Shown: positions 9,816 to 55,040 of the stretch, one piece after another | How positions within the stretch are numbered: the stretch's first letter is position 1 | How the letters are laid out: every line of letters begins with the position of its first letter | DNA from: Sphaerochaeta sp. Phil3 | GTDB lineage: Bacteria; Spirochaetota; Spirochaetia; Sphaerochaetales; Sphaerochaetaceae | Length of the DNA: 55,173 bases | Assembly: GCA_001940825.1 (NCBI GenBank) | Contig: MSGT01000031.1 | Coordinates: 1-55,173, forward strand | Reading direction: 5' to 3' | Notes under the pieces: generated by a model | Databases searched by the model: none | Told to the model about the DNA's origin: nothing | What the model saw: the letters and a program-made list of their open reading frames with translations, nothing else | Translations under genes and position numbers: made by a program

Positions 9816-9860
9816 CGTGTACTGTACGCACATCACGCACTACACGTACTAAAACGCACT
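9816..9860. repeat. Degenerate 9-bp tandem repeat tract A1
   Basis: Five consecutive 9-bp units, best described as YACGYACTA (for example CACGCACTA at 9834, CACGTACTA at 9843). It is the first of three such blocks in the 9.8-10.04 kb gap after the feo terminator. Not coding in any convincing way. Confidence 0.6.
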
Positions 9861-9884
9861 GTTTTGGGACTTTCGTTTGGAAAT

Positions 9885-9963
9885 TGTCAGCGTTTTGTAG
9901 CGATGGTGAGTGTTGTGTACATTGTGAGTGTGGTGGGTTTGTGAGTATGGTGAGCAAGGTGAG
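9885..9963 (+). repeat. Degenerate 9-bp tandem repeat tract A2 with shared core
   Basis: The lead-in GTCAGCG and the core TTTTGTAGCGATGGTGAG (9893-9910) are followed by 9-bp units of the form NNTGGTGAG (9902, 9911, 9920, 9929, then an 8-bp unit, 9946, 9955). The 18-bp core is identical at 44421-44438, and a similar inverted copy lies at 54767-54800. Confidence 0.65.
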
Positions 9964-9994
9964 GGTGGCCGCCAATGGCTGAATTTTTAGATTC

Positions 9995-10039
9995 CACTAG
10001 TCTTACTACACCTATTACTCCCACTAAGCTTACTAATAC
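9995..10039. repeat. Degenerate 9-bp tandem repeat tract A3
   Basis: Five exact 9-bp steps: CACTAGTCT, TACTACACC, TATTACTCC, CACTAAGCT, TACTAATAC. Read on the minus strand it resembles the tract at 36268-36312 (shared AAGCTTAGTGGG, then A or T, then GTA). Confidence 0.6.
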
Positions 10040-10086
10040 GCTTTAATTTAAGTTGAATTATGAAATTGAATGCTTGCACTCGTTCA

Positions 10087-10155
10087 AAACTTTGGAATTT
10101 CCTACATGTAAACTTTGGAATTTCCTATATACAAACTTTGGAATATCCTAAAAAA
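10087..10155 (+). repeat. Three tandem 23-bp direct repeats upstream of the RDD/ABC genes
   Basis: Copies start at 10087, 10110 and 10133, each beginning AAACTTTGGAATTTCC (third copy has one T to A change) followed by TA and a variable end. The phase is exactly 23 bp with no spacers, so this is not a CRISPR. The GGAATTTCC centre is near-palindromic. The array ends about 50 bp before the putative promoter at 10204, which suggests a regulator-binding array. Confidence 0.75.
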
Positions 10156-10203
10156 CGATGTGACAAAGCATAGCTTAAGCCATGTCAACAAGAACAATTC
10201 TCA

Positions 10204-10233
10204 TTGCTAACAGTCGGGCAAATGTTATAGAAT
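10204..10233 (+). promoter_or_regulatory. Putative promoter of the RDD-ABC region
   Basis: TTGCTA (10204-10209), 18-bp spacer, TAGAAT (10228-10233). Initiation near 10240 would exclude the upstream in-frame ATG at 10232 and favour translation from 10259. Confidence 0.4.
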
Positions 10234-10258
10234 GGATTTTGCTTGGTTTGGATTAGCT

Positions 10259-11020
10259 ATGGTTTTTGATTTGCAAAAGGCGAGTGTCTGGAAACGGGCG
10301 AGTGCCTTCCTATTCGACTTCATCCTCCTTACGATACTGGTGGTGGCGTTCGCCTTCCTCCTTTCGTGGATTACAGGCTACGACGGCTACAGCGACACAT
10401 ACTACGACAAAATGACAGAGTGCGAACAAACATATGGCACTTCGTTTGGATACACACGAGAACAGTTCGATGAATTGGATGCAGATGGTCAAAAGGCATA
10501 CATGGATGCGTACAATGCCCTTGTGTCTGACGACAACGCCATGTATGCGTATAGGATGATGGTCAATCTCATAATGCTCATAACCTCCCTATCAATATTC
10601 CTTGCATATCTAGGACTCGAATTCGTCGTTCCAATCATCATCAAGGATGGGCGCACCTTGGGGAAGAAGATTTTTGGAATTGCGGTCATGCGTACCAATG
10701 GCGTAAGAATGAACAAGGTGAGTCTCTTCATACGGACCTTTCTGGGCAAATATGCAATAGAGACCATGGTACCCGTCCTCATAGCCACCATGATACTCTT
10801 CAATACAATAGGTATAGTGGGCCCCATCGTAGTGGGGCTCCTTTTCGTACTTGAGATTGTGCTTATGGCTGCAACCAAGACAAACTCAATGATACATGAC
10901 CTGCTTGCAGACACCGTTGTGGTGGACTATGCAAGCCAGATGATATACGACAGCGAAGAAGCGCTGGTTGCAGCGAAACGCCAGGCCGCATTGGAGAAGG
11001 CCAACAGAACAAGCTACTAA
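10259..11020 (+). CDS. RDD family membrane protein
   Basis: 253 residues. KRASAFLFDFILLTILV gives the Arg and Asp of the RDD motif in the first helix. A charged, Tyr-rich extracytoplasmic loop follows, then two or three more helices with GRTLGKKIFGIAVM, and the final conserved Asp in MIHDLLADTVVVD. RDD proteins are small membrane proteins; some have been linked to Na+/H+ exchange, but the role is generally unclear. The ATG at 10232 is in frame; 10259 is preferred because the putative -10 overlaps 10232. Neither has a good ribosome site, so the start is uncertain. Only 19 bases separate it from the ABC ATPase gene. Confidence 0.8.
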   Translation: MVFDLQKASVWKRASAFLFDFILLTILVVAFAFLLSWITGYDGYSDTYYDKMTECEQTYGTSFGYTREQFDELDADGQKAYMDAYNALVSDDNAMYAYRMMVNLIMLITSLSIFLAYLGLEFVVPIIIKDGRTLGKKIFGIAVMRTNGVRMNKVSLFIRTFLGKYAIETMVPVLIATMILFNTIGIVGPIVVGLLFVLEIVLMAATKTNSMIHDLLADTVVVDYASQMIYDSEEALVAAKRQAALEKANRTSY

Positions 11021-11039
11021 ATGAGAGGAAATAGAGAGA

Positions 11040-12146
11040 ATGATTGTTGAACTTCAGAACTTGACCAAAATCTTCCCAAGCAGGAACAAGAACAGCGATG
11101 ACGAAGTCGTGGCTGTAAACGATTTCACGTTCACCATCCCTGATGGCAAGCTTGTAGGTCTGCTTGGACCAAGCGGCTGTGGAAAGAGCACTACGCTTTA
11201 CATGATCTGCGGATTGCAGAAGCCAACGAGCGGAAAGATCTTCTTTGGAGAGGATGACGTAACACAGCTTCCTGCTGAGAACAGAGGCGTTGGGCTTGTG
11301 TTCCAGAACTACGCACTCTATCCCCACATGACGGTGAAGCAGAATATCCTGTTCCCCCTTCAGAACCTCAGGGGGGAGGATAGGCTTTCAAAGGAGGAGA
11401 TGCTAAACAGGGCATACGAAGTTGCAAAGATCGTTCAGATCGACGAGCTTATGGAAAGAAAGCCAAGCGAGCTCTCCGGAGGCCAGCAGCAGCGTGTCGC
11501 AATCGCAAGAGCCCTTGTGAAGATGCCAAAGGTGCTTCTTCTAGACGAGCCGCTTTCAAACCTGGATGCCAGACTCAGGCTTCAGACAAGGGAGGAGATC
11601 CGCCGCATCCAAAGGGCCACCAACATCACGACGGTGTTCGTCACCCATGACCAGGAAGAGGCCATGAGCATATCCGACATGATAGTCGTCATGAAGCTTG
11701 GAATCGTACAGCAGATTGGAAAACCTCAGGATGTTTACAACAGCCCTGCCAACCTGTTTGTGGCCAAGTTTCTTGGAACCCCTCCAATCAATGTGTTCGA
11801 TGGAAGAATAAAAGATGGAGTCGTCTACATTGGAAATGAGGCCGTTGGGGATGCAAGGGATGTTGCGGATCAGAATGTCTACGTTGGAATAAGACCTGAA
11901 GGGTTCATCCTCAATGACGATGGTCCGTTCACATGCAACCTCAATGCAGTGGAGGTCATGGGAAGGGACGTAAGCGTGGTCGCTACGAACGAAGCTTCCA
12001 TCAACCCTGTCGTGAGAGCCATCATAGATGCTGACAACAAGATTGACCATGACAGAAAGACGGTGAACTTCTTCATCAAACCTAACAAGATGTTCCTCTT
12101 CAACAAAGAGACAGAGGAAAGGATCTATATAGTAGAGGATAGGTGA
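11040..12146 (+). CDS. Carbohydrate ABC transporter ATPase (UgpC/MsmK/MalK-like)
   Basis: 368 residues. Walker A GPSGCGKST, signature LSGGQQQR, Walker B VLLLDEPLSNLDARLR and the switch His in FVTHDQEEAM are intact. The C-terminal 120 residues form the TOBE/regulatory domain typical of the CUT1 sugar-importer class. A GAGAGG/AGAGAG purine run precedes the ATG. It is followed after one base by the first permease gene; together with the next three genes it makes a complete importer. In many genomes such ATPases serve several transporters, but here the linked copy suggests dedicated use. Confidence 0.93.
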   Translation: MIVELQNLTKIFPSRNKNSDDEVVAVNDFTFTIPDGKLVGLLGPSGCGKSTTLYMICGLQKPTSGKIFFGEDDVTQLPAENRGVGLVFQNYALYPHMTVKQNILFPLQNLRGEDRLSKEEMLNRAYEVAKIVQIDELMERKPSELSGGQQQRVAIARALVKMPKVLLLDEPLSNLDARLRLQTREEIRRIQRATNITTVFVTHDQEEAMSISDMIVVMKLGIVQQIGKPQDVYNSPANLFVAKFLGTPPINVFDGRIKDGVVYIGNEAVGDARDVADQNVYVGIRPEGFILNDDGPFTCNLNAVEVMGRDVSVVATNEASINPVVRAIIDADNKIDHDRKTVNFFIKPNKMFLFNKETEERIYIVEDR

Positions 12147-12147
12147 C

Positions 12148-13104
12148 ATGAGCAGCAGCATGGTAGAAAGCAAACATCCGTGGAAGGCTTGGCTCTATCT
12201 TGCACCTGCAATAGTTCTTTTGCTGGTGTTCACCGTGTGGCCAATCTTCAATACGGTAAGGATGGCGTTCCTTGAGAACTACAGCGGACTCAAGGCCGCC
12301 GGTGGAATGAAATTCCAGTTTGGATTTGGAAACTTCGAGAAGGTCGTCCAGTACAAGAGATTCATACAATGCATGAAGAACACCGTCCTTCTTTGCATCT
12401 TCACGGTTCCTATCTCGACGATCCTGGCGCTTCTCATAGCGGTGTGCCTCAACTCGATCAAGACGCTTCAGAAGTTCCTTCAGACGATATTCTTCCTGCC
12501 GTATGTAACAAACTCAATAGCCATTGGAATGGTCTTCGCGGCAATGTTCAATATAGTTGGAAGCTTCTATGGAACCGAGAACGAGATAATCGTGACGGCT
12601 GGAATCATAAACAACGTCATAGAGTTCTTTGGTGGAAAGCCAATCAACTGGATAAACTACGGCTCCACCTATGCAGCGAACATGACGGTCATGGTCATCT
12701 ACATAGTATGGAATGCTTTGCCGTTCAAGATCCTCATCCTTCTTGGAGGACTCCAGAGCATAAACAAGCAGTACTACGATGCCGCAAAGGTTGACGGAAC
12801 GTCAAGACGCAGGATCTTCACAAGGATAACGGTGCCTCTTCTTTCCCCCATGATCGCATACGTCGTAATCACAGGCTTCATTGGAGGTTTCAAGGAGTAC
12901 ACCAGCATAGTAGGTATCTTTGGAGAATCCATGGGCCCTGCCGACGATGCAAAGAGGCTCAATACCATGGTTGGATTCATATACGATGCGCTGTCGTCCA
13001 ACAGTCAGGGTAGGGCAAGTGCCGCCGCCCTCATTCTGTTTGGAATAATCCTTGTCGTCACTCTCATAAACCTGCAGGTCAGCAAGAAGAGAGTCCATTA
13101 TTGA
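12148..13104 (+). CDS. Carbohydrate ABC transporter permease (UgpA/MalF-like)
   Basis: 318 residues, six predicted membrane helices, first helix in YLAPAIVLLLVFTVWPIFNTV. The EAA loop that contacts the ATPase reads YYDAAKVDGTSRRRIFTRIT. The region after the second helix has a 30-residue insert (VGSFYGTENEIIVTAG...NWINYG), common in CUT1 MalF-like subunits. The product pairs with the next gene as a heterodimeric inner membrane channel. Confidence 0.92.
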   Translation: MSSSMVESKHPWKAWLYLAPAIVLLLVFTVWPIFNTVRMAFLENYSGLKAAGGMKFQFGFGNFEKVVQYKRFIQCMKNTVLLCIFTVPISTILALLIAVCLNSIKTLQKFLQTIFFLPYVTNSIAIGMVFAAMFNIVGSFYGTENEIIVTAGIINNVIEFFGGKPINWINYGSTYAANMTVMVIYIVWNALPFKILILLGGLQSINKQYYDAAKVDGTSRRRIFTRITVPLLSPMIAYVVITGFIGGFKEYTSIVGIFGESMGPADDAKRLNTMVGFIYDALSSNSQGRASAAALILFGIILVVTLINLQVSKKRVHY

Positions 13105-13115
13105 GGAGGCGCGAC

Positions 13116-14006
13116 ATGGCAGAGAGAATTTCAACGATGCACGAAAAGGATATGCAGAAGGAGACCTCAAGGCAAAAGGTCGTTGGCGTCATAGTCATGG
13201 TGCTCCTCTATGCTTTCCTCATAACGATGGCCTTGATTGTGCTTTTCCCCTTCTATTGGATGATAAACTCGTCTCTCAAGACATTGGAAGAGTACAGAAT
13301 GAGCGTTCCTACGTTCTGGCCAAAGCAGATAATGCTTACGAACTACGCCACGGCGTTCCAGACGGCCAGCCTTGGAAGGCTGTTCCTAAACACGCTGTAC
13401 GTTGGCATAGTGTCCACTATACTTTCATTGGTGATCACGATACTATCGGCCTTTGCCTTTGCTCGTCTTGAGTTCAAGGGGAAGGACCTTTTGTTCGCAG
13501 GGCTTTTGGCTACGATGATGATTCCTGGCGAGCTGTTCACGATCACGAACTACAGCACCGTCACCAATCTTGGATGGCTGAACACATACACCGTCCTCAT
13601 TGTGCCGTTCCTCGTGAGCGTGTTCTACATCTACCTTCTCAGGCAGAACTTCATGCAGATTCCAAACGAGCTGTATCTTGCCGCCAAGGTGGATGGTACA
13701 AGCGACTTCAAGTACCTGTGCAAGGTCATGATTCCGCTTTCGCTGCCAACGCTCATATCCATCACAATCCTTAAGATGATGGGTGCTTGGAACTCGTACA
13801 TTTGGCCAAGGCTCGTTGCAAACGATGCAAACCACAGAATGATAACGAACGGTCTTAGAAACGCCTTCAAGGAGACGAGCGGAGACGTGAACTATCCTGT
13901 CCAGATGGCGGCAGTCGCAATGGTGTCCGCACCGCTTTTCCTTGTGTTCGTGTTCCTTAGGAAATACATCATGAAGGGAGTGAGCCGCAGCGGAATCAAG
14001 GGTTGA
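13116..14006 (+). CDS. Carbohydrate ABC transporter permease (UgpE/MalG-like)
   Basis: 296 residues with six membrane helices; the EAA loop is LYLAAKVDGTSDFKYL. The MalG-type N-terminus ALIVLFPFYWMINSSLKT is diagnostic. The frame extends to a TTG at 13101, but GAGGAGG immediately before ATG 13116 settles the start. It follows the first permease by 11 bases. Confidence 0.92.
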   Translation: MAERISTMHEKDMQKETSRQKVVGVIVMVLLYAFLITMALIVLFPFYWMINSSLKTLEEYRMSVPTFWPKQIMLTNYATAFQTASLGRLFLNTLYVGIVSTILSLVITILSAFAFARLEFKGKDLLFAGLLATMMIPGELFTITNYSTVTNLGWLNTYTVLIVPFLVSVFYIYLLRQNFMQIPNELYLAAKVDGTSDFKYLCKVMIPLSLPTLISITILKMMGAWNSYIWPRLVANDANHRMITNGLRNAFKETSGDVNYPVQMAAVAMVSAPLFLVFVFLRKYIMKGVSRSGIKG

Positions 14007-14114
14007 TGCCGATGCGGTTTCGATGGTCTGTCGCCTAAGGCAGCCTTGGAAAAATTGGGAGATATCGTCCAATTGGGCGATTATATAGGTTGAAATCAAT
14101 AAAAGGAGAAAAGC
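14007..14114 (+). promoter_or_regulatory. Intercistronic region before the solute-binding protein
   Basis: A 108-base gap in an otherwise tight operon. AATTGG (14054-14059) and CCAATT (14069-14074) can pair as a small hairpin. AAAAGGAG precedes the ATG. Such a gap may allow extra expression of the binding protein by RNA stabilisation or an internal promoter; none is clear. Confidence 0.3.
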
Positions 14115-15530
14115 ATGAAGAAAACTTTTCTGGTTCTGTTGCTCCTTGTTGGGGCAGTGATGGTTGCCTTCTGCGGAGGAAACTCCGAGTCCGGCAATGC
14201 GAAGGTCGAAGGAGCATTCGAAGTTCCAGAAGTAGGTTATGACGGAAGCGAAGTCACAATCACCTTCTACCACACGATTGGCTCGACCAAGACACATACT
14301 CTGGATGACTACATCGTAGAGTTCAACAAGCTCTATCCAAACATCCATGTCGTATACGAATCCGTTGGCGGCTATGATGATCTCAGAGATCAGATCAGCA
14401 CGCAGATCACTGTTGGAAACCAGCCAAACATCGCCTACTGCTATCCTGACCACGTAGCTCTCTACAACCTGGCAGGTGCAGTCGCAACTCTTGACAACCT
14501 CATCAACAGCGACATCGTTGTGACAAGAGCGGACGGCACGACAGAGACGTTGGGACTTACAGCCGAGCAGCAGGCAGACTTCATCGAAGGCTACTATAAC
14601 GAAGGCAGACAGTTCGGCGACGGCCTCATGTACACCATGCCGTTCTCAAAGTCCACTGAAGTCCTCTACTACAACAAGACTTTCTTCGATGCAAACGGCA
14701 TTGAAGTCCCAACCACATGGGAGGAGCTTGAAGCAGTATGTGCAAAGATCAAGGAGATCGATCCAACCTCCATTCCTCTTGGATACGACTCTGAGTCCAA
14801 CTGGTTCATCAATATGTGCGAGCAGTACAACAGCCCATACACAAGCGCAACTGGCGACCACTACCTGTTCAACAACGAGACGAACAGAAGCTTCGTCAAG
14901 CTGTTCAGATCCTGGTACGAGAAGGGCTATCTCACAACACAGAAGCTCTACGGCGCATACACATCAGGTCTTTTCACCTCCACAACGAATCCAAAGAGCT
15001 ACATGTCCATTGGTTCTTCCGCAGGTGCAACATACCAGCGCCCAGCCAAGGTCGATGGTGCATATCCATTCGAAGTTGGAATCGCATCCATCCCACAGGT
15101 CTCCCAGGACAACAGAAAGGTCATCTCCCAGGGACCAAGCCTCGTGATCTTCGACAAGGCCAACTCCCAGGAAGTCGTTGCATCATGGCTCTTCGTGAAG
15201 TTCCTCACCACATCGGTTGACTTCCAGGCTGCATTCTCCATGGACTCCGGTTATGTTCCTGTAATCAAGTCCGTCATGGACAACGCTGTCTATGCCGATT
15301 TCATTGCCAATGCCGATGGCTATGACAACATAGCAGCCCTCAGCGCAAAGGCATGTCTCGAGCAGGAGGATGCTTACTACACATCCCCAGCCTTCAACGG
15401 CTCATCCACAGCTCGCGACCAGGTTGGTGCACTTCTTTCCAAGTGTCTCTCGACTGCAACGGACAACGTCGATGCAATGATCCTCCAGGCTTTCCAGGAT
15501 GCCATCGACGAGTGTGAGTACAACAACTAA
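14115..15530 (+). CDS. Extracellular solute-binding lipoprotein of the ABC importer
   Basis: 471 residues. The signal LVLLLLVGAVMVAFC with Cys20 is a spirochaete-style lipobox (AFC followed by GG). The mature protein shows the family-1 solute-binding pattern: VTITFYHTIGSTKTHTLDDY, FNKLYPNIHVVYESVGGYDDL, then PFSKSTEVLYYNKTFFDANG and PTTWEELE. It should be membrane-anchored and deliver an oligosaccharide, glycerophosphodiester or similar ligand to the permeases. The substrate cannot be named from sequence. The downstream nuclease-like and OB-fold lipoproteins are an unusual company for a sugar importer. Confidence 0.92.
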   Translation: MKKTFLVLLLLVGAVMVAFCGGNSESGNAKVEGAFEVPEVGYDGSEVTITFYHTIGSTKTHTLDDYIVEFNKLYPNIHVVYESVGGYDDLRDQISTQITVGNQPNIAYCYPDHVALYNLAGAVATLDNLINSDIVVTRADGTTETLGLTAEQQADFIEGYYNEGRQFGDGLMYTMPFSKSTEVLYYNKTFFDANGIEVPTTWEELEAVCAKIKEIDPTSIPLGYDSESNWFINMCEQYNSPYTSATGDHYLFNNETNRSFVKLFRSWYEKGYLTTQKLYGAYTSGLFTSTTNPKSYMSIGSSAGATYQRPAKVDGAYPFEVGIASIPQVSQDNRKVISQGPSLVIFDKANSQEVVASWLFVKFLTTSVDFQAAFSMDSGYVPVIKSVMDNAVYADFIANADGYDNIAALSAKACLEQEDAYYTSPAFNGSSTARDQVGALLSKCLSTATDNVDAMILQAFQDAIDECEYNN

Positions 15531-15544
15531 GGGATGATTCCAGA

Positions 15545-16933: not shown

Positions 16934-16957
16934 GTTTAAGATCAAAAGGAGTACAAG

Positions 16958-18295: not shown

Positions 18296-18325
18296 TCCCT
18301 TATTCGAACGTTGGTTCTGAAAACA

Positions 18326-18357
18326 AAAGACCGCCTGACTGGCGGTCTTTCTTTATT
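18326..18357. terminator. Bidirectional rho-independent terminator
   Basis: AAAGACCGCC (18326-18335) pairs perfectly with GGCGGTCTTT (18341-18350), 5-base loop, followed by TCTTTATTT. It serves the ABC/lipoprotein operon on the plus strand. It probably also serves surE on the minus strand, whose stop lies at 18353-18355. Confidence 0.92.
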
Positions 18358-36267: not shown

Positions 36268-36312
36268 AGTGGTAGTTGGTGTAGTGCGCTTAATAAGCTT
36301 AGTGGGTGTAGT
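36268..36312 (+). repeat. Degenerate 9-bp tandem repeat tract B
   Basis: Five exact 9-bp steps (AGTGGTAGT, TGGTGTAGT, GCGCTTAAT, AAGCTTAGT, GGGTGTAGT). It is related to tract A3 in reverse orientation. Confidence 0.6.
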
Positions 36313-36315
36313 GAA

Positions 36316-36334
36316 GGCCGTTGCAAAAACGGCC
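36316..36334. terminator. Hairpin after the ABC permease gene
   Basis: GGCCGTT (36316-36322) and AACGGCC (36328-36334) with a GCAAA loop, located just past the minus-strand stop at 36345. A T-run is inside the loop side on the minus strand only, so termination is possible but weak. Confidence 0.4.
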
Positions 36335-44184: not shown

Positions 44185-44210
44185 GCCAACTGATTCATTG
44201 GAATTCATTC

Positions 44211-44242
44211 AGGGCCGCCTGCAAAGGGCGGCTCTGTTTTTT
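44211..44242 (+). terminator. Rho-independent terminator of pckG
   Basis: AGGGCCGCC (44211-44219) pairs with GGCGGCTCT (44227-44235), with one G-U pair, followed by TTTTTT at 44237-44242. Confidence 0.9.
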
Positions 44243-44250
44243 ATATGTTC

Positions 44251-44377
44251 TTGTTTCCTTGAACTTTCTTGTCTCTCTAGGAGTCTCAGCCTCTCTGGAC
44301 GGTCTAGGCTTTCTAGTCCCTCTAGCCAATCTAGCCTATCTGGACGGTCTAGCCGCTCTCGCCGTTCCAAAGCGGTC
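44251..44377. repeat. Degenerate 9-bp tandem repeat tract C1
   Basis: Twelve uninterrupted 9-bp steps from 44260 to 44367, flanked by partial units, with consensus TAGCCNNTC. Two units (TGGACGGTC at 44296 and 44341) are identical 45 bp apart. This is the longest and most regular tract of its kind in the window. It lies directly after the pckG terminator. Read as protein it gives a Ser/Arg-rich tripeptide pattern, but there is no gene start. Confidence 0.75.
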
Positions 44378-44420
44378 TAACTTGGAATTCCGGCATTCAA
44401 AAATCCAATAATTGTAAGCT

Positions 44421-44501
44421 TTTTGTAGCGATGGTGAGCGTGGTGAGCTTTGTTGTTGTGGTGGGTATGGTGAGCATTGTGAGCTTGGTCGCAGTGGTCA
44501 T
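44421..44501 (+). repeat. Degenerate 9-bp tandem repeat tract C2 with shared core
   Basis: Starts with TTTTGTAGCGATGGTGAG, identical to 9893-9910, followed by 9-bp units of the form NNTGGTGAG through to 44501. Units at 44466 (TATGGTGAG) and 44475 (CATTGTGAG) are also found in tract A2. Confidence 0.7.
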
Positions 44502-44525
44502 GCTTATCCTTTCACTTCAATTCCT

Positions 44526-44555
44526 TTGCCTCCCATGCTGTGTTTGGGTTATACT
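44526..44555 (+). promoter_or_regulatory. Putative promoter of the dCMP deaminase-PfkB genes
   Basis: TTGCCT (44526-44531), 18-bp spacer, TATACT (44550-44555). The predicted leader contains three 8-bp tandem units (ACATATCT, ACATATAG, ACATATCG at 44566-44589) before the AGGAGG ribosome site. Confidence 0.5.
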
Positions 44556-44606
44556 TGCGGTACGTACATATCTACATATAGACATATCGGCTAGGAGGCG
44601 TGCACT

Positions 44607-45143
44607 ATGGGCGAAGTTTGCAACACGACTTGCTGCAACGCAAGCAACACGAGTAATACGGGCAATACTAAAAGAACCGACTATATCTCATGGGACGAAT
44701 ACTTCATGAGCGTGGCTGTCTTGTCTTCCTTGAGAAGCAAGGATCCAAACACAAGGGTTGGAGCCTGCATCGTAAATGCTGACAGGAAGATAGTTGGAAC
44801 CGGATACAACGGCTTCCCAATAGGATGCAGTGACGATGACCTTCCTTGGGGAAGGGAAGGCGACCATCTTGATACAAAGTATCCGTATGTTTGCCATGCA
44901 GAACTCAACGCAATACTCAACAGCATTTCCAGAGACCTCAGGGGCTGTACCCTCTATGTTGTAATGTTCCCTTGCAATGAATGTGCAAAGGCCATAATCC
45001 AAAGCGGCATAAAGGAAGTCGTCTACATGGAGAACAAATATCCTGAGTCTGACAGCGTGAAGGCCTCTCTTAGGATGCTTACCCAAGCAGGAGTCGCCAT
45101 TCGGCATTTTGCAAAGGACGAAGTCCTGGAGATACACATTTGA
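44607..45143 (+). CDS. Deoxycytidylate (dCMP) deaminase, ComEB-like
   Basis: 178 residues. [30 protein letters not shown] starts the deaminase domain; CHAELNAI and PCNECAK supply the Zn-binding His/Cys and the catalytic Glu. The enzyme makes dUMP for thymidylate synthase, linking it to the thyA-folA cluster 20 kb away. The first 25 residues are an unusual Asn/Thr/Cys-rich lead with a [12 protein letters not shown] pattern, encoded by 9-base repeats (44637-44672). AGGAGG upstream fixes the start. The stop TGA overlaps the next ATG by one base. Confidence 0.92.
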
Positions 45144-47567: not shown

Positions 47568-48277
47568 TCTTTCACCTCCTGTCCATGGTTGGGTTGTCCG
47601 TAATAGGCATTGGCCCCATGTTTGCGATAATAGTGTCGGTCAAGCAAATATTGCTCTACGGATGGTGTACCCCCATTGATTTGCTTTGTGTGTAGTGCCA
47701 TGAAGGCGACCTCTTCAAGAACTGCAGCGTTGTGGACCGCATCGAAGGAGTCCCTTCCCCAGGCAAACGGCCCGTGGTTCCTTACAAGCACCGCTGGAAC
47801 GGACAAGGGGTCTGTTTCCTTGAATGTCTCTGCAATGACAAGACCTGTGTTCTTTTCATACTCGCCTTGGATTTCATTCTTGGTAAGGCTTCTTGTACAA
47901 GGAATCGTGCCATAGAAGTAGTCCGCATGGGTCGTTCCAAAGGCCGATATCCCTGTGCCTGCTTGTGCGAATGAAGTAGCCCAACGTGAGTGCGTGTGGA
48001 CTATCCCTCCAATGCTTGGAAAGGCTTTATATAGTTCAAGATGCGTTGGAGTATCGGATGATGGTCTAAGCCTTCCTTCAACCACTTTTCCCTCAAGATC
48101 TACAATGACAATGTCATCTGCAGTCATATCCTCGTAGCACACACCTGATGGCTTTATTGCAACCAAGCTGTTTTTTCTATCTATTTCCGATACGTTTCCC
48201 CATGTGAAAGTCACAAGGGAGTACTTTGGAAGGAGCTGGTTCGCTTCAAGAACCTTTTCCTTTAAATCGTCAAGCAT
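47564..48277 (-). CDS. araD: L-ribulose-5-phosphate 4-epimerase
   Basis: 237 residues, class II aldolase fold. [10 protein letters not shown] and [11 protein letters not shown] bind phosphate, [15 protein letters not shown] holds the catalytic Asp, HTHSRWAT gives the two Zn His, and [11 protein letters not shown] the third. The product D-xylulose-5-phosphate enters the pentose phosphate pathway. Starts one base after the araB stop. Confidence 0.95.
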
Positions 48278-48278
48278 T

Positions 48279-49841
48279 TCAGAACACCTCCACGGCTTTT
48301 CTTTCTACTTCCAGCAGTCTCTTATAGTTGGCGATAAAGGCATCGAAGCCTGAAAACTCAGAGGCATCGGCCTTGATTGTGGATACCTCCATGCCAATAT
48401 AGACCTTGTCTTCCAGGTAGGATGCCAGGCTCTCGCCCTCGTTCCATAGCATGAAGGCGCAGAGCAGCGCCATTCCATAAGGGCCTCCTTCTCCTGCGGT
48501 TTCCATTGAGGACACAGGAACACCCAGTGCGGCCGACAGCATCCGTTGGCCCGCCATGCCGGTCTTGAAGAAGCCTCCGTGTGCAAGGATTCGATTTATT
48601 CTTATGTTCTCCACTTTGAGTACGTCCATTCCAATCTTGAGAGTGGATAGTGCGGAGTACAGATGGCATCTCATGAAGTTTGCAACGGACATTCGGCTTT
48701 CCGTTGGATGCAGGAACATTGGAAGACCTCTGTCGAAGTCTGTAACCCCCTCGCCCGAGTGGTAGTTGCAGCTCAGAAGTCCTCCGCAGTCCGGTTCTCC
48801 TTCAAGGGCTATGCCATATAGTTTCGAAAAGAGTTCGTCTTTTGGAATGTCCATTCCAAATTCCTTCGCAAAGTCTCCAAAAAGCCCTATCCAGTTGTCT
48901 ATGTCCGTCGTGCAGTTGTTGCAATGGACCATTGCAACAGCCTCCCCTGACGGAGTAGTGACAAGATCCAGCTCCCTGTGCCTTCCAGGAATATGGTCGA
49001 GAACTACCATTGCGAAGTCGCTTGTGCCTGCGCTCACGTTGCCTGTGTATACTGCAACCGAGTTGGTCGCAACCATGCCGGTACCTGCATCGCCTTCAGG
49101 AGGAGCCATTCTGATTCCACTTTCAAACTCCCCTGTTGGGTCGATTATGAGAGATCCTTCGCTTGTAAGGAATCCTGCATCATCCCCTGCCTTGAGTACC
49201 TTTGGAAGTACGGAATCCAACTTGAGCTTCAGTCCCTTTTTCGACAGAAGGGCGTTGAATTTTCCTTCCATCTTTCTATCGTACGTGATTGTTGTACTGT
49301 CTATTGGAAACATGCCTGAGGCATCGCCAACACCGGACACGAAGCATCCCGTCAAAAGATAATGTACATAGGATGCAAGTGTGGCGACCTTTGAAACCAT
49401 TGGCACGTGTTCTTCGTTGTTTAGGACTGCTTGGTAAAGGTGTGCCACTGACCATCTTTGTGGTATGTTGAAATCGAACAGCTCAGTAAGCTCCGCCGCC
49501 GCCTCTCCTGTTGTCGTATTCCTCCAGGTTCTGAATGGAACAAGAAGTCTGTCATGGTCGTCCAGCGCTATGTACCCATGCATCATTGCAGATATCCCAA
49601 TGGCGCCCGTGGCGGTCAGTCTTTGGCCAAACCTTCTTTCAAAATCCATTTTCAGGTCTTTGAAGCAGGACTGAAGCCCAAAAAGCACCTCCTGCATACT
49701 GTATGTCCATATTCCATTGGATAGGGTGTTCTCCCATCCATAGCTTCCAGAGGCTATTGCATTGTGCCTTCTGTCAATCATGACAGCCTTTATCCTAGTG
49801 GATCCAAATTCTATTCCTATTGTGGTGTCTCTTAGATTCAT
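48279..49841 (-). CDS. araB: FGGY-family L-ribulokinase
   Basis: 520 residues. [17 protein letters not shown] opens the ATPase fold, [12 protein letters not shown] and FRTWRNTTT follow, and the C-terminal half has [13 protein letters not shown] and [17 protein letters not shown]. It belongs to the shorter AraB variant found in Clostridia, Bacteroidetes and Thermotoga rather than the E. coli type. Context (araD, araA, araR) supports L-ribulose as substrate. AAAAGGA lies upstream of the ATG. Confidence 0.9.
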
Positions 49842-49860
49842 AGAATGCGTCCTTTTCTAC

Positions 49861-49888
49861 AGTTTAACAAAAAACAGTACAAATTCAA
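49861..49888 (-). promoter_or_regulatory. araBDA promoter with AraR half-site
   Basis: Minus strand TTGAAT (49883-49888), 16-bp spacer, TAAACT (49861-49866). ATTTGTAC (rc of GTACAAAT at 49877-49884) overlaps the -35 and spacer and is one half of the B. subtilis AraR palindrome. Confidence 0.55.
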
Positions 49889-49938
49889 GACATTTTTATA
49901 GAAAAAGGTTTATTTCTAAGCATGTGTTTAAAAATGTA

Positions 49939-49968
49939 TTTACAAATCTTATGTTTTGCTGCAATAAT
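49939..49968 (+). promoter_or_regulatory. Promoter of the membrane hydrolase gene with ACAAAT site
   Basis: TTTACA (49939-49944), 18-bp spacer, AATAAT (49963-49968). TTACAAAT (49940-49947) lies on the -35, 63 bp (six turns) from GTACAAAT in the araB promoter. Confidence 0.5.
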
Positions 49969-50010
49969 CTATGGTATTGTAAATGCAATTTTCTCTAGAA
50001 GGAGGCTTTT

Positions 50011-52179
50011 ATGGAGAAAAAGGAAAAGTTCTTTACCTTTGGTACTTCCAAAGGTTGTTTCAGGCTACTTTGCCTGTTCCTTGTGCTTATCGTCCTGTTT
50101 AGCCTTGCCGCACAGCTCATTACGACAAGGAATCACAAGATTGAAATTTCAGATATTGTGCTCGATGTGAGAGGAGGAGACCTCCATATGGAGCTTTATA
50201 GGCCTGCGAATGCAGATAGTACAATGGCTTATCCTTGTGTCCTTCTTACGCATGGCGGTTCAGAGAGCCTAGCTGCGGACAGCATGATGGCTTGGGAGCT
50301 TGCTCGAAGGGGTTTTGTTGTTCTTAATATAAGTGCATATGGCGCAGGACTTTCAGACCAACCAAACATCCTTGAGGATGGAACGACTGGGATGAATGGG
50401 GGAAGGTATAATAGAGGTGCGACGATGGGAATGTGGGATGCATATCAATATGCACTGTCTCTTGAATTCGTTGATTCTACACGTATCGCTGCATGGGCGC
50501 ACTCCACAGGCAGACACCTCTTTACAAAGATGGTCAGCTATTTTGGTCAGAACCTTACTCTCAACGACAGACTTATAAACGTTCTGCATGATGATTTTGG
50601 TATTGAATTCAAGGAAGAGGAAATTCTTTTTGATGCAGATGTCATTGCGAAGGAGAGGCTGAGTGACATTGACTATGGGAAATATCTAGTCAAGAAGGCC
50701 GAACAGGAAGATATTGTAAGCAAGTACCTCAAGGCCGCAAGACTTACTGAACGTGCCTATAGCGTGAAAGCAAAGGTTGCTGGTTATGATGTTATACGCG
50801 ATCCTCAGATGAATCTTCTTATTGGTCTTGGAACCCACGAGCTTTCGGGAAAAACTGGCAGCTTCTATTTGGGGGAGACGGATCAGTATAAGAAGATTTT
50901 CCATGTGACAACAGGGGTTCAAAGAAACTGTTGGTATGACATATGCGACTATATACATGATACAAGCGCAGAGTCGTCTCTCATTGGAGCCTGTTTCTCA
51001 ACCACAATCAACAATTCTGCTGAGCTAAAACAGGCTTGTGAAAAAGGAACGGCTCGCTTCTTCCTGAGTCCTGTAACAATGCACAACGGAAACTTGTGGA
51101 GCTGGACTGCCGTCAGTGAGGCTGTAGAATTCTACTGCCAGACCTTGGGATGGAACAATGGCGAGTTGTCCGATCCCGCTACAAAACCAATAGACACCAA
51201 GAGTTGTATTGTTGGTTATAGTGCACTCCTTTGCACATCATTGGCATTCGTTGCTTTGATTGGTGCCGTTGTAGCTGTTGCAGCTATGCTGCTTAATACC
51301 TGTGTATTCAAAACCTGTAACATGCTGCCGCTTCCAAAGCCAAGAATGGAAATGAAGGGTCTAGATTTCGTTCTCTATGTAGTTGCAACCACCATTGCAG
51401 GCTTTGCAGGTGCTTACGGTGCTCAGATGGCAGATCAGAGCTTCAAGGTGTCGAACAAGACTATGTCGTTATGGCTTCCTTGGGAACCCGGTCAGGTAAG
51501 AACCTTCTTCATGCTTGGTCTGACAGCTGTTGTAGGTATAGTTCTTTACCTTATTCTTGGTTTTATTGGAAGAAAGAACAACAAACAGAGCCTTTCATCC
51601 ATCACGGAGATGAAGCTTGATGGGGGTGGAGTCCTTAACGTATTCAAATATCTTGGTATTGCTGTCATAATGTTCGCTTTTTGCTATGCTGCGGCAAATT
51701 TCATAAATACGTTCTTCGATTCCAGGTTCATGCTTATAGATGGCGCTTTCGAGCTAATGAAGGGATATGGTTTTGGTAGAATGGCTAGATACTTCATCAT
51801 TATTCTCCCATGTACTTTCATCATAAGTACATTGAACAATATGGTGTCGTTCAAGAATGTATCTGACAGCGCTGACACGGCTTTCAATGTATTGTTCACA
51901 TCTCTTGGAATGATAGTACTCATTCTCATCGCTTACATCTACACATATTCGGGAGAGAACAACGGAGACATACTGCATATACAGTGCATCCTCTCTATAA
52001 TTCCACTGGTTCCTATTTGCAATTACCTATATAGGAAGTTGTATAAGCTTACTGGTAGTGTATGGCTTGGAGCTTTCTTTGTCGCCATACTCATTGCTTG
52101 GAGATGTGCAGGCTATGTATCCCATCAGTTCATGTGGTATGGAAACAACGAAGTCGCCGCATTCTGGGGCATATACTGA
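50011..52179 (+). CDS. Multi-spanning membrane protein with extracytoplasmic alpha/beta hydrolase domain
   Basis: 722 residues. One N-terminal helix (LLCLFLVLIVLFSLAAQL), then a hydrolase-like domain of about 350 residues: VLLTHGGSESLAADSM (oxyanion region), NISAYGAGLSDQPN, and WAHSTGRHLF, in which Ser replaces the centre of a GxSxG elbow with Ala at the first Gly. From about 410 there are eight to nine helices. This two-part layout is found in unnamed Firmicutes and spirochaete proteins. AGAAGGAGG precedes the ATG. Lying between araB and araR with a possible AraR site, it could release or sense arabinose esters, but that is inference. Confidence 0.7.
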   Translation: MEKKEKFFTFGTSKGCFRLLCLFLVLIVLFSLAAQLITTRNHKIEISDIVLDVRGGDLHMELYRPANADSTMAYPCVLLTHGGSESLAADSMMAWELARRGFVVLNISAYGAGLSDQPNILEDGTTGMNGGRYNRGATMGMWDAYQYALSLEFVDSTRIAAWAHSTGRHLFTKMVSYFGQNLTLNDRLINVLHDDFGIEFKEEEILFDADVIAKERLSDIDYGKYLVKKAEQEDIVSKYLKAARLTERAYSVKAKVAGYDVIRDPQMNLLIGLGTHELSGKTGSFYLGETDQYKKIFHVTTGVQRNCWYDICDYIHDTSAESSLIGACFSTTINNSAELKQACEKGTARFFLSPVTMHNGNLWSWTAVSEAVEFYCQTLGWNNGELSDPATKPIDTKSCIVGYSALLCTSLAFVALIGAVVAVAAMLLNTCVFKTCNMLPLPKPRMEMKGLDFVLYVVATTIAGFAGAYGAQMADQSFKVSNKTMSLWLPWEPGQVRTFFMLGLTAVVGIVLYLILGFIGRKNNKQSLSSITEMKLDGGGVLNVFKYLGIAVIMFAFCYAAANFINTFFDSRFMLIDGAFELMKGYGFGRMARYFIIILPCTFIISTLNNMVSFKNVSDSADTAFNVLFTSLGMIVLILIAYIYTYSGENNGDILHIQCILSIIPLVPICNYLYRKLYKLTGSVWLGAFFVAILIAWRCAGYVSHQFMWYGNNEVAAFWGIY

Positions 52180-52212
52180 TTGTAGGTTTGTTTGGATAGT
52201 TTGAATCCTTTT

Positions 52213-52254
52213 GGCTGTGGCCTTTGCGTGAAGCAACTGAGCCACAGCCTTTTT
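52213..52254 (+). terminator. Rho-independent terminator of the membrane hydrolase gene
   Basis: GGCTGTGGC (52213-52221) pairs perfectly with GCCACAGCC (52241-52249), followed by TTTTT. Confidence 0.9.
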
Positions 52255-52370
52255 GTTTCTAGCGAGGTGAGAGGATGAAGAGCTTTTTTGGGTCGGGTGT
52301 GTCCATGGGTTTTCCTAAGTGGAGACAATCGCAGAGAAAGAACCCTTTCACCTCTTTATCATAAAAACAG

Positions 52371-52418
52371 ACAAATACATTCTATTCCATGGAAATTTGT
52401 ATTGCTTTTGAATATAAT
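52371..52418 (+). promoter_or_regulatory. araR promoter with paired ACAAAT/ATTTGT sites
   Basis: TGGAAA (52390-52395), 17-bp spacer, consensus TATAAT (52413-52418). ACAAAT (52371-52376) and ATTTGT (52395-52400) are inverted around the -35. This is consistent with AraR autoregulation. Confidence 0.6.
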
Positions 52419-52438
52419 GGTAATCAAAAGAGGTGGAA

Positions 52439-53482
52439 ATGGCAAAATACATCGATATTGCCAAGATCATTGAAAAAGAGATACTTGGAGGTGGGTTTGA
52501 ATTAACTGGAAAGCTCCCTACCGAGTACGAGCTTGTTGAGAGGTTCTCTGTAAGTCGTCAAACCATACGGCAGGCTATAGCCTTTCTTAAGAGCGAAGGC
52601 CTTGTCTACCAGGTTCAGGGGAGTGGTACATACGTAGCGTCTTCCGCAACGAAAAGGACGGTTGACAAACGCAGGGGAGGGAATGTACTCGTAATATGCA
52701 CGTACATAAGCGATTATATTTTCCCAAGTATCATAAGAGGCATAGAGAAGGAGTTGTCGTCGTCAGGCTACATCGTCAATCTTGTGGCCACAGGCAACAG
52801 AGTGGAAACCGAGAGGCATATACTCCAGAAAATCCTTGAAGGGCAGGAAGTGGATGGAATAATCGTGGAGGGAACCAAGACGGGATTTCCAAATCCAAAT
52901 GTAGGTCTCTACGAGCGCATTGAGAAGATGGGAGTCTCTGTGGTGTTTCTTCATTGCTCCTATCCGGAACTTGCCAATGCAATAGTGGTTGGGATGAAGG
53001 ATAAGGAAGGGGGCGTGATTGCGGCGAAGAGCCTTTTGTCCAAAGGGTGTAGAACATTCAAGGCCATATTCAAGTCAGACGACCGTCAGGGTCTCCTGCG
53101 ATATGCTGGTTTCTGCGAAGGTTTGCTGGATTCCGGGATAGACCTTGGATGCTCAAGGACAAAATGGTACACGACGGAGGATATAGATTCCTTGGATTTG
53201 CTTGTTTCAAAGATGCTGGAGTCCGATCCAAGTTCTCCTGATGGTTTCATTTGCTACAACGACCAAATTGCTGCGGCGCTGGTTCGCCATTATGAACAGC
53301 AAGGCAGAGACCTTCCTGTTGTTTTCAGTTTCGACCATAGCTATCTGTGCGAAGCGTACAAAGGGAAAATCATCTCGATAGGACATCGCAAGGAGGAGCT
53401 TGGAACTCTTGCAGCGAAGAAGATGATAGGCATGATAAACGGTCAGGAAGCGGGTTCGGAATTCCTGGACTGGATGAATTAG
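52439..53482 (+). CDS. araR: Arabinose-responsive repressor AraR (GntR head, LacI-type sensor)
   Basis: 347 residues. N-terminal GntR winged helix: KLPTEYELVERFSVSRQTIR and VQGSGTYVAS. The C-terminal part is a periplasmic-binding-like sugar domain. TYISDYIFPSIIRGIEKELS is nearly the same as in B. subtilis AraR, and FKSDDRQG and FICYNDQIAA are also shared. It should bind L-arabinose and release ara operators. A GTG at 52433 is in frame, but AGAGGTGG points to ATG 52439. It lies downstream of araBDA and the hydrolase in the same locus. The RNase D-like gene follows after 12 bases. Confidence 0.93.
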   Translation: MAKYIDIAKIIEKEILGGGFELTGKLPTEYELVERFSVSRQTIRQAIAFLKSEGLVYQVQGSGTYVASSATKRTVDKRRGGNVLVICTYISDYIFPSIIRGIEKELSSSGYIVNLVATGNRVETERHILQKILEGQEVDGIIVEGTKTGFPNPNVGLYERIEKMGVSVVFLHCSYPELANAIVVGMKDKEGGVIAAKSLLSKGCRTFKAIFKSDDRQGLLRYAGFCEGLLDSGIDLGCSRTKWYTTEDIDSLDLLVSKMLESDPSSPDGFICYNDQIAAALVRHYEQQGRDLPVVFSFDHSYLCEAYKGKIISIGHRKEELGTLAAKKMIGMINGQEAGSEFLDWMN

Positions 53483-53494
53483 GATGGGTTTGCA

Positions 53495-54403
53495 GTGGTT
53501 GGCTATAGCGTCATCGACAATGATATCGGTCTAGACGAATTAGTTGCCAAGTGGGGTAGCGATGGCGTGGCGAGCGTGGCCATGGACTTTGAAGAGGAGT
53601 CTAACCTTCATTGCTATGGCGAGTATGTGTGTACCATGCAGCTGTTTGATGGAAGTCGCTATTACTTGGTGGACTGTTTGGCTCTCTCGAGGACGGAGGA
53701 GGGGCGCGCAAGTCTCAGGGCGTTCCTGGAGGGGCCAATCGAGAAGGTGATGTTCGCTTGCCAAAGCGATGCCGCACTTGCACGAAAAACACTTGGCATC
53801 CAGCTTGCGAACATATACGATATCCGCATTCTTGCTATGGCCTTGGGGTTGACCGGAAACCTTTCGTCCCTTGAGGAAAAATATATCAAGGCCGATGTCT
53901 CTGAGACCCCTTCCTTGGAGGCTCCTCTCTACGGTAGCAAGAAGAAGTTCCAGACCGCCAACTGGATGCGCCGTCCAATTCCAAGGGACCAGATCGTCTA
54001 TGCTTTGGGAGATGTGGAGCATCTTTTTGAGCTGAGGGCCATTTTGGAGGAAGAGGTTTCGCAGACGCTTTCCGTCTCAAAGCAAAAGGAGATTGCTTAC
54101 GAGATGAAGCGCTGCGCTCTTGCCAAGAACCCTGAACGTCCGGGGTGGGAGAAGATATGCAACTACAGACTTCTGGGGCATAGAGAAAGGGTGTTCATAA
54201 AGCACTATTTCCTTGCTCGTGACAGTGTGGCTCGTCGTAGAAATGTGCCTGCTTCAAGAGTTCTTGCCAAACAGGATATAGTTGGTATGGCGAAGGCTCA
54301 GGATTGGAGAGGCTTTGTACCTGTTGGAAGCAGGGAGCTTGAAGCAGCGTTCTCAAAAGCGCACGAGAACGCCTTGAAGGAATTGCGAAAACCAGTTGTG
54401 TAG
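53495..54403 (+). CDS. RNase D-like 3'-5' exonuclease
   Basis: 302 residues. DEDDy active site: AMDFEEES (Asp, Glu), FACQSDAALA (Asp) and YALGDVEHLFEL (Tyr/Asp). The second half has the HRDC-like helices seen in RNase D, though shorter than E. coli RNase D (about 375 residues). The role is probably trimming of tRNA or other stable RNA 3' ends. The start is GTG 53495 with AGGA ten bases upstream; no in-frame ATG exists nearby. Position after araR looks accidental rather than functional. Confidence 0.85.
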   Translation: MVGYSVIDNDIGLDELVAKWGSDGVASVAMDFEEESNLHCYGEYVCTMQLFDGSRYYLVDCLALSRTEEGRASLRAFLEGPIEKVMFACQSDAALARKTLGIQLANIYDIRILAMALGLTGNLSSLEEKYIKADVSETPSLEAPLYGSKKKFQTANWMRRPIPRDQIVYALGDVEHLFELRAILEEEVSQTLSVSKQKEIAYEMKRCALAKNPERPGWEKICNYRLLGHRERVFIKHYFLARDSVARRRNVPASRVLAKQDIVGMAKAQDWRGFVPVGSRELEAAFSKAHENALKELRKPVV

Positions 54404-54466
54404 GTTAGACGTATCGTAGTTTCCCAAAGTTTTGTAACCATTTAGTTTCTCGTTGGTTAAGTTGTG

Positions 54467-54531
54467 TCACACCTTTTTCAGGTGTGAAGGAGATTTTTAT
54501 GAAAAACCCCACTTCTGCACAGTGTTTGTAA
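54467..54531 (+). promoter_or_regulatory. Leader-like element: hairpin, ribosome site and 10-codon ORF
   Basis: TCACACCT (54467-54474) and AGGTGTGA (54480-54487) form a perfect 8-bp stem with a TTTTC loop. AAGGAG (54487-54492) follows, then an ATG at 54499 opening the decapeptide MKNPTSAQCL, stop at 54529. Further hairpins follow: CTCG/CGAG around 54538-54551 and GGGG-ATTG-CCCC with TTCTT after it. The layout resembles an attenuation leader, but no downstream gene is present within the window, so a decayed gene start or repeated element is equally possible. Confidence 0.35.
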
Positions 54532-54625
54532 TTGGGACTCGAAAAACCGAGGGGATTGCCCCTTCTTGATGGAGGCGCTGAAATGGGCAACTCATGAGGA
54601 TGAGGCGAATGAATCCGTAGGCTTT

Positions 54626-54669
54626 CCGTGCGTCCCATGCGTTCCGTGAGCCCGTGCGCCCCATGCAAC
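54626..54669. repeat. Degenerate 9-bp tandem repeat tract E0
   Basis: Units of the form CCRTGCGNN at 54626, 54635, 54644, an 8-bp unit at 54653 and another at 54661. Confidence 0.5.
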
Positions 54670-54680
54670 CCCGTAGAACA

Positions 54681-54752
54681 GATGCCACAACCGCTACGGA
54701 TGCAACACATGCTACACTTGCCACAACCGCCACAGACCCTACAGATGCGCCA
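54681..54752. repeat. Degenerate 9-bp tandem repeat tract E1
   Basis: Eight exact 9-bp steps with consensus NATGCYACA (for example GATGCCACA at 54681, CATGCTACA at 54708, CTTGCCACA at 54717). Confidence 0.7.
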
Positions 54753-54766
54753 CGGATTCGACCTCG

Positions 54767-54800
54767 CTCACCACACTCACCATCATCACGAAACGCTGAC
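54767..54800 (-). repeat. Inverted copy of the GATGGTGAG core (tract E2)
   Basis: Read on the minus strand it begins GTCAGCGTTTCGTGATGATG and continues GTGAGTGTGGTGAG. This matches the lead-in and first units of tract A2 at 9887-9919 with few differences. Confidence 0.6.
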
Positions 54801-54974
54801 TTTCCAGCATCTGTGGCCTGCCAGTAGATGTCGATTCCATTTGAAGCTTTTCCTTGAGGGATCCAGGCTCGGACCCTTGAATGAGTGGAGGCTGTCTGTC
54901 CTGCTCTCCGTGGCCCACGGGGCCGTTGAAGCTTACAGGGCCGTTTGGGGGCTTGAAGACCTTGAATCATCACC

Positions 54975-55040
54975 ACCCCACAGCGTCCTACAACGCCCAT
55001 CAACGCCATACTCCGCCATACAGCGCCCATCAAAGCTACC
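54975..55040. repeat. Degenerate 9-10-bp tandem repeat tract E3
   Basis: Units resembling CCATACAACG at about 9-10 bp spacing. Less regular than the other tracts. The stretches 54801-54974 and 55041-55173 contain no gene or signal that I recognise. Confidence 0.4.

Follow-up and report, generated by a model that had tools for sequence, protein, structure and literature searches.

The 55,173-bp contig MSGT01000031.1 of Sphaerochaeta sp. Phil3 (hereafter, the window: the whole stretch of DNA that was analysed) contains tracts of degenerate tandem repeats, mostly between genes, that advance in steps of 9 bp or, in one case, 10 bp. With good confidence, we take these tracts to be the terminal repeats of a family of small elements of a mobile type, coding for a RAYT-like transposase of the Y1 (HUH, single-tyrosine) kind. 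The tracts of the window themselves are read as solo or internally deleted copies of the ends of such RAYT elements, similar to miniature inverted-repeat transposable elements (MITEs) or bacterial interspersed mosaic elements (BIMEs). Arrays of this kind bracket RAYT genes, are dispersed over the genome, are constrained at particular positions of the unit, and have gained or lost exact 9-bp steps at a locus shared by two congeners.

RAYT-like genes between inverted arrays

The search of the genus with PF01797 (Y1 transposase family) gives seven matches in this genome, six of them RAYT-like proteins of 229–259 residues; a profile of 18 RAYT-like proteins also matches six. All six genes are flanked by inverted arrays, of one unit class in five cases and of the related pair I/D in one (for the classes, see below).

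RAYT element L264: arrays B/B, inverted
RAYT element L265: arrays I/I, inverted; arms identical over 52 bp
RAYT element L266: arrays I/D, inverted
RAYT element L267: arrays C/C, inverted
RAYT element L268: arrays I/I, inverted; arms identical over 35 bp
RAYT element L269: arrays H/H, 10-bp units, inverted

The identical stretch between the two arms is 12–16 bp in L264, L266, L267, and L269. Arrays comprise 5 to 11 units; the upstream one stops 11–96 bp ahead of the chosen start codon, and the downstream one begins 15–26 bp past the stop codon in two elements, L264 and L267. In the other four, 1–22 bp of the downstream array lie inside the gene end. The seventh PF01797 match, a 143-residue frame on contig C1 that is IS200-like by score, has no array within approximately 3 kb.

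RAYT loci of the genus were scored by a fixed rule (a segment at lag 8, 9, 10, 18, or 20 with a score of 13 within 400 bp of the gene, orientation not being part of the rule). The set comprises 21 loci, that is, 24 matches minus G008:C17, G005:C46, and the partial gene L318; L285, having no match to the L264 protein, was left out. Arrays are seen on both sides at 13 loci (6/6 in this genome and 7/15 in congeners), on one side at seven, and on neither side at one. Control genes have arrays on both sides in 2 of 422 cases in this genome and 1 of 271 in congeners, and on one side in 83 of 422. Among the loci missed by the rule, the right array overlaps the 3' end of the gene in L271 and L272, inverted arms are recovered by a repeat search in L274 and L277 (in the latter, at distances of approximately 500 and 860 bp), L278 and L280 are located at contig ends, and L282 (8-bp repeats) and L284 remain one-sided. 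In L271 and L272 the RAYT frame also enters its own right array, yielding a C-terminus of QTH-type repeats.

The congener loci have the same plan with different units, e.g., CTTGCANAT, GTCTGGTGC, ATGGCATTC, TTTGGAGGC, TCGGGGTCA, and GGGCAACTA. For 15 of the 21 RAYTs, the mean unit likeness is 0.69 between the left and right arrays of one gene vs. 0.44 between genes, and none of the 105 between-RAYT pairs attains the median of the same-gene pairs. At the locus common to G009 and G010 (96.8% identity over 4.7 kb), the left arrays differ by 18 bp and the right arrays by 9 bp, i.e., by whole units. Another genus of the family gives eight matches in all; scored at 12, four of six loci (L299, L300, L301, and L312) are flanked on both sides by arrays with a period of 9 or 10, L313 has an array on one side, and L314 has none. 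The RAYT subfamily is narrow: of 139 genomes in the order, 8 have matches with E < 1e-88, and these 8 belong to a single genus.

PF01797 is recognised in all 18 RAYT-like proteins (E up to 0.1), and the HxH and tyrosine (Y..xN) motifs are present in 21/21; H80, H82, Y144, and N148 are invariant in 18/18, and the motif tyrosine is predicted to be catalytic. The AlphaFold model (pLDDT 89.9) has a Y1 core followed by helices 178–224 and matches the structures of ISDra2 and IS608 (E ~1e-5) and, more weakly, TnpA-REP 4er8 (1.6e-3). By PF01797, HxH, the single tyrosine, and the structure match, the proteins belong to the RAYT / Y1 HUH superfamily. Known C-terminal domains, including Bac_DnaA_C, HTH_23, and HTH_28, give no Pfam hit at E up to 0.1; the modelled C-terminus is helical, and helices 178–224 could carry DNA recognition.

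Periodic tracts of the window

For each tract, self-match at a given lag was compared with 2000 dinucleotide shuffles. In eight of the nine tracts listed in the first-pass annotation, the lag-9 self-match is reached or exceeded in just 0–15 of 2000 shuffles, giving an exact 9-bp period. In the remaining tract, 54975–55040, lag 9 is equalled in 1484 of 2000 shuffles and lag 10 in none, giving a period of 10. The excess over shuffled sequence, the lack of which would by that annotation have refuted it, is thus real for eight tracts, and its statement that every tract steps by 9 bp holds for these eight and not for the one of 10 bp. The tracts, with the evidence for each, and two short arrays beyond these nine are as follows.

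9816–9860, minus strand: class E array (GTGCGTGAN, minus-strand reading), the left arm of a gene-less MITE-like copy (shuffles, unit profile, divergent from the class A array)
9851–9901, no strand: core between two inner ends, AAAACGC...GCGTTTT (inner-end alignment, pair analysis)
9895–9963, plus strand: class A inner end and array (TGGTGAGNN), the right arm of the E–A copy (alignment, shuffles)
9995–10046, minus strand: class F array of 9-bp units with inner end TTAAAGCGTATTAGT (unit profile, shuffles)
36268–36316, plus strand: class F array, solo (class by unit profile only, no blast match in the first sample; shuffles)
44260–44379, minus strand: class B array (GGCTAGANN), the left arm of a B–A copy, with inner end at 44366–44379 (same class as the arrays at the L264 RAYT gene)
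44380–44422, no strand: core of the B–A copy (pair analysis)
44423–44501, plus strand: class A inner end and array, the right arm of the B–A copy (blast, unit profile, shuffles)
54626–54669, minus strand: class I-like 9-bp array (blast match to L022, shuffles; not called as a run by unit profiles)
54681–54752, minus strand: class C array (unit profile, shuffles; same class as the arrays at the L267 RAYT gene)
54759–54794, minus strand: short class A (profile K) array, beyond the nine tracts (unit profile)
54910–54954, plus strand: short class I array, beyond the nine tracts (unit profile)
54968–55040, minus strand: class H array of 10-bp units (GGCGNTGTNN) (unit profile, shuffles; same class as the arrays at the L269 RAYT gene)

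Searches of the window for tRNA, tmRNA, and Rfam families find none. A terminator-like hairpin module (GGCACAG...CTGTGCC) constitutes a second dispersed repeat, present at 9737–9811 and in L011:9740–10110; it several times adjoins E or F arrays, and in L011 it forms an apparent degenerate tandem of approximately 110 bp. A 23-bp repeat (AAACTTTGGAATTTCCTACATAC, 2.8 copies) occupies 10087–10150, upstream of the gene at 10232. The dCMP deaminase gene contains an N-terminal stretch with in-frame 9-bp repeats (44607–44668) that falls outside the region matched by eight congener orthologues, the matches of which start at query residue 10 to 22. The window end, 55143–55173, matches the ends of contigs C21 (L016) and C46 (L013), so that the assembly may be interrupted at this point by a longer repeat.

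Unit classes and mosaic copies

The search with window positions 44200–44560 finds 22 further places in the genome. Overall, the arrays fall into approximately 10 unit classes, which recur genome-wide as colinear mosaic copies and are therefore transposable-type repeats. The 9-bp classes are A (TGGTGAGNN), B (GGCTAGANN), C (TGTAGC-type), D/I (GGGGC-type), E (GTGCGTGAN), and F (GTAGTGGGN); the 10-bp classes are G (GTACCTGANN) and H (GGCGNTGTNN); the unit profiles F/A and D/I have partly converged. Each class has two to four unit positions at ≥88% and two to five positions of ≤0.6 bit. Classes have conserved inner ends, several of which finish in CGTTTT ahead of the first unit, and GTAG is present in some of the units and inner ends. 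Between aligned copies of class A, the differences are of whole 9-bp units. Independent generation of each tract is ruled out by the shared classes and the shared unit order.

The first-pass annotation took the shared period and unshared sequence of the tracts as an argument against one transposable repeat. Units are in fact shared, between the tract at 9902 and that at 44430 and, by unit class, between 9995 and 36268, with more copies genome-wide; the classes are dispersed repeats, and four of them, B, C, H, and I/D, form the ends of RAYT-like elements of this genome, so that this argument falls.

Recurrent class partners are B with G (9 gaps) and A with E (8 gaps). Neighbouring arrays form 16 divergent pairs with cores of 15–98 bp (class K runs excluded), nine of them A/E; two are in the window, E–A at 9814–9939 and B–A at 44265–44485. 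Set against the layout of a MITE (two terminal repeats of a known element around a short gene-free core), none of these 16 pairs joins arrays of one class.

A 25-residue hydrophobic open reading frame (ORF; MSDxExLM...) is found in three copies downstream of A–C arrays, at L011:10652, L024:12814, and L022:297 (minus strand). Its 5' and 3' flanks look complementary by eye, resembling a type I toxin–antitoxin cassette; Pfam Hol_Tox gives only E 0.28, for one copy.

Constraint on unit positions

Dispersed copies were compared position by position where their alignment took in 50 or more spacer columns. In 23 alignments, mismatches are seen at 17/622 (2.7%) conserved unit positions, 97/394 (24.6%) free positions, and 287/1988 (14.4%) spacer positions; the bootstrapped conserved/spacer ratio is 0.19 (0.10–0.27). 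Because annotation could mask mutated units, the test was repeated with the position class read from one copy only (conserved 70/1657, 4.2%; free 252/1025, 24.6%; spacer 796/5250, 15.2%) and from either copy (46/887, 5.2%; 131/534, 24.5%; 316/2177, 14.5%). Across the three annotations, conserved positions change 5–9 times less than free positions and 3–5 times less than spacers; in the two repeat tests the contrast is approximately five- to sixfold with free positions and threefold with spacers. The alignments share copies and hence are non-independent, and alignment itself favours matches. On these points the first-pass annotation is right: the period is real, shared, and mostly intergenic, and the mismatch contrast between copies shows constraint on its core positions. 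Most simply, the constrained core is a predicted binding address for the transposase.

Abundance and distribution

The first sample of 428,539 bp (the window and stretches partly picked around matches; segment score of at least 14) has 40 lag-9 and 18 lag-10 segments vs. one of each in the control, a single Markov-resampled copy; two segments of each lag are runs of N, and N-containing segments were dropped from later counts. The whole sample comprises 638,526 bp, or 27% of 2,356,532 bp, with 540 genes and 83.7% coding DNA according to a simple gene caller. Of its 54 lag-9 segments, 40 are intergenic and 14 coding; of its 23 lag-10 segments, 22 are intergenic and one lies at an edge. Tracts of this kind do occur in other gaps of the genome, and the placement after terminators and outside genes given in the first-pass annotation is mostly correct; overlap with a gene end is possible, as at four of the six RAYT genes of this genome. 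Coding repeats are rejected as a general account, as 10-bp classes cannot hold a frame, yet the 14 of 54 lag-9 segments lie inside called genes. A long collagen-like (Gly-X-Y) repeat in G004 (L073:5381–8498), coding by eye, also has period 9, so lag-9 signals within genes need not be such arrays.

Strictly non-ORF DNA has 34 lag-9/10 segments per 49.0 kb in the whole own sample and 13 per 20.0 kb in its part not selected by matches. Elsewhere there are 2 per 45.6 kb (80 PEPCK loci of diverse bacteria), 1 per 16.1 kb (family), 1 per 18.9 kb (congeners other than G002), and 4 per 6.6 kb in G002, the sample of which includes contigs chosen for carrying arrays. Ten array-bearing gaps are seen in 210 kb of contig starts not selected by matches (contig C12 among them had an earlier match), which by simple proportion gives approximately 110 genome-wide; array copies thus explain a share of this genome's long intergenic gaps. 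Arrays are found in convergent gaps in 16 of 36 array gaps vs. 45 of 261 gaps of at least 60 bp. With co-directional neighbours, array orientation is unbiased (15 same, 16 opposite; class K runs excluded).

Three consecutive units GGTRAGNNT are found only in G000 and G002 among 139 genomes of the order. The pattern scan for the A/E core in one genome per species, possibly excluding records near the genome of the window, finds none. The L011 element, sought in 61 genomes, has matches in G000, a 39-bp match in G002, and a 38-bp match in G036; it has no match in the four genomes with the nearest PEPCK genes.

One empty-site comparison, too diverged for reading of the junction, is provided by the metagenome-assembled genome record RUG14846 (L087; PEPCK 87% identical): the gap between the PEPCK and dCMP deaminase genes is short there, with little beyond a terminator and no array, and in the window it spans 422 bp and holds the B–A copy. 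RUG in the name of this record presumably stands for rumen. The named PEPCK records nearest to that of this uncultured spirochaete come from spirochaete metagenome-assembled genomes. The congener dCMP deaminase loci offer no comparable gap, the upstream neighbour being another gene in seven of eight and the contig start in the eighth. For the gap orthologous to 9736–10231, five loci match the next gene, with no shared upstream neighbour recognised.

Interpretation and alternatives

A full element in this genome consists of an array, 11–96 bp, a RAYT gene, and an inverted array close after or overlapping the stop codon. Each transposase has its own unit sequence, and nearly all have a common step: one transposase subfamily with different addresses. 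In each unit, of 9 bp or, in one element, 10 bp, two to four positions are near-fixed and two to five are free, and the transposase may bind units as a multimer stepping 9–10 bp, perhaps via its C-terminal helices. The shared period follows the transposase subfamily rather than the sequence. Copies that keep the address would be those that spread by transposase action, which would explain constraint even on gene-less copies. The broader proposal, to which we give somewhat less than an even chance, is that a Y1/RAYT subfamily reads tandem arrays instead of hairpins, its address being free to change and its 9/10-bp step being fixed by protein geometry, and that several protein–array pairs, active in parallel in one genome, filled its gaps with gene-less copies. 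If true, the DNA ends of this HUH transposase family would be modular and easily given a new address. Intergenic sequence that had no explanation thereby acquires a likely identity, as the ends belonging to a named family of enzymes, and the 21 transposases, with differing flanking units and near-constant spacing, form a natural series on end recognition without the usual hairpin and on change of address.

Several results weigh against the assignment of the tracts to RAYT elements. Under the strict rule, 8 of 15 congener RAYT loci have no two-sided arrays. No transposase for classes A, E, F, and G, which make up approximately half of the window tracts, is found in this genome, rated 96% complete. 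All 16 divergent pairs mix different classes, whereas five of the six full elements have one class. Unit similarity does not correlate with transposase similarity (Mantel p 0.23), and joint change of unit and transposase along the tree is rejected on this ground. No movement or target-site duplication is seen, and in G009 and G010 the element occupies the same place. Remote Y1 homologues in the family (L303, L304, L305, L306, L307, and L315) are never two-sided, with an array on one side in L303, and those in the phylum have arrays at 0 of 21 loci. In G002 (74% complete), four arrays are built of GGTRAG-type units and one of CGTCAC-type units, and there is no RAYT match; its L082:911–2071 holds a gene between two inverted class A-type arrays that is not transposase-like and is apparently split into two frames, possibly cargo. 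The bracketed gene resembles a nitroreductase. A further 9-bp array of G002, CGTCACTGA-type, is at L235:5334–5421, with no transposase identified.

Among other explanations, the least improbable, though in our view unlikely, is that host proteins bind the arrays as regulatory or chromosome-organising sites of the host, with RAYT elements carrying them or landing in them. Constraint on unit positions and enrichment in convergent gaps would fit such sites, and, as far as the published accounts describe them, there are precedents of proteins coating contiguous short repeats, RptR with 9-bp units (PMC12255303) and ParB of pSM19035 with 7-bp units (PMC9499535). Inverted pairs placed directly around RAYT genes, with the unit differing from gene to gene, are harder to reconcile with it, as are the colinear dispersal of the copies and their near absence from the sampled family genomes. 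Functionless, decaying minisatellites produced by neutral slippage are much less probable still, and we give them hardly any weight: whole-unit differences among copies and at one shared locus are what slippage would leave, but the very unequal rates across unit positions are unlike uniform decay, and the restriction of the step to 9–10 bp and the association with RAYT genes speak against it.

A role of the arrays as structured RNA or as hairpins in single-strand DNA, in the manner of classical repetitive extragenic palindromic (REP) sequences, is improbable too, less so than slippage and more so than host sites. Fold z-scores against shuffles are below −2 for three of 12 RAYT-flanking arrays and −1.7 for two more, and that of window 9737–10050 is −2.71, a stretch that includes a terminator hairpin; GTAG in some units and inner ends points the same way. 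Against this, z is −0.6 or above in seven of the 12 arrays, and five other composite folds range from −1.12 to 0.25. A consistent hairpin excess is not found in the 12 arrays tested, short stems with a GT[AG]G foot not having been scanned for. As general features of the arrays, RNA structure is rejected on the composite folds, and single-strand DNA hairpins are rejected with only three of 12 arrays below −2. Attribution of the tracts to the ends of RAYT-like elements remains the reading that we prefer.

Comparison with known systems

No named element with the property described here was found in the open-access literature searched, in agreement with the first-pass annotation. Several classes of STRR, short tandem repeats of filamentous cyanobacteria, have one common period. 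These are likewise intergenic and of unknown function; their period is 7 vs. 9 and 10 here, and the portion of the description consulted names no transposase (PMC2670836). STAR elements of staphylococci, likened here by description, unit and spacing aside, are also direct repeats scattered between genes; they undergo expansion and contraction and may be kept by selection, with no transposase link named in the account consulted (PMC3532100).

REPtrons are closer. In the published descriptions used here, they consist of a single-tyrosine HUH transposase gene flanked by two inverted palindromic REPs, which are palindromes of 20–50 nt with a GTAG-type foot (PMC2817692, PMC8266576); species with several repeat families have repeat-specific transposases (PMC3733652). 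The elements described here have the gene between two inverted repeats (all six genes of this genome) and non-autonomous intergenic singles and mosaics in common with REPtrons, and differ in that their ends are arrays of tandem 9–10-bp units with no consistent hairpin in the 12 arrays tested. No description of RAYT elements ending in tandem 9-bp units was met with in the open-access texts searched, figures and supplements aside.

TIRtrons (TIRYT; Di Nocera et al., 2013) have a RAYT-like gene between long inverted repeats unrelated to GTAG REPs, and certain of the repeats also belong to dispersed families with single, dimeric, or clustered copies, according to the sections of that paper drawn upon (PMC3733652); they probably correspond to subclass 2.1 of PMC6006769, as outlined there. 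The GGGGWSAS motif of some, not all, published terminal inverted repeats is present in none of 15 array sets here; the C-terminal Bac_DnaA_C, HTH_23, or HTH_28 domain given for subclass 2.1 gives no Pfam hit here at E up to 0.1, the modelled C-terminus being helical and of unassigned fold; and tandem 9-bp units do not appear in the TIRtron description, figures and supplements aside. The likeness is in the plan, as here too a RAYT-like gene lies between long non-REP inverted repeats that are also dispersed. REPtrons and TIRtrons are thus the closest known kind, and, judged by these partial descriptions, we class the elements of this genome as a variant of the TIRtron kind.

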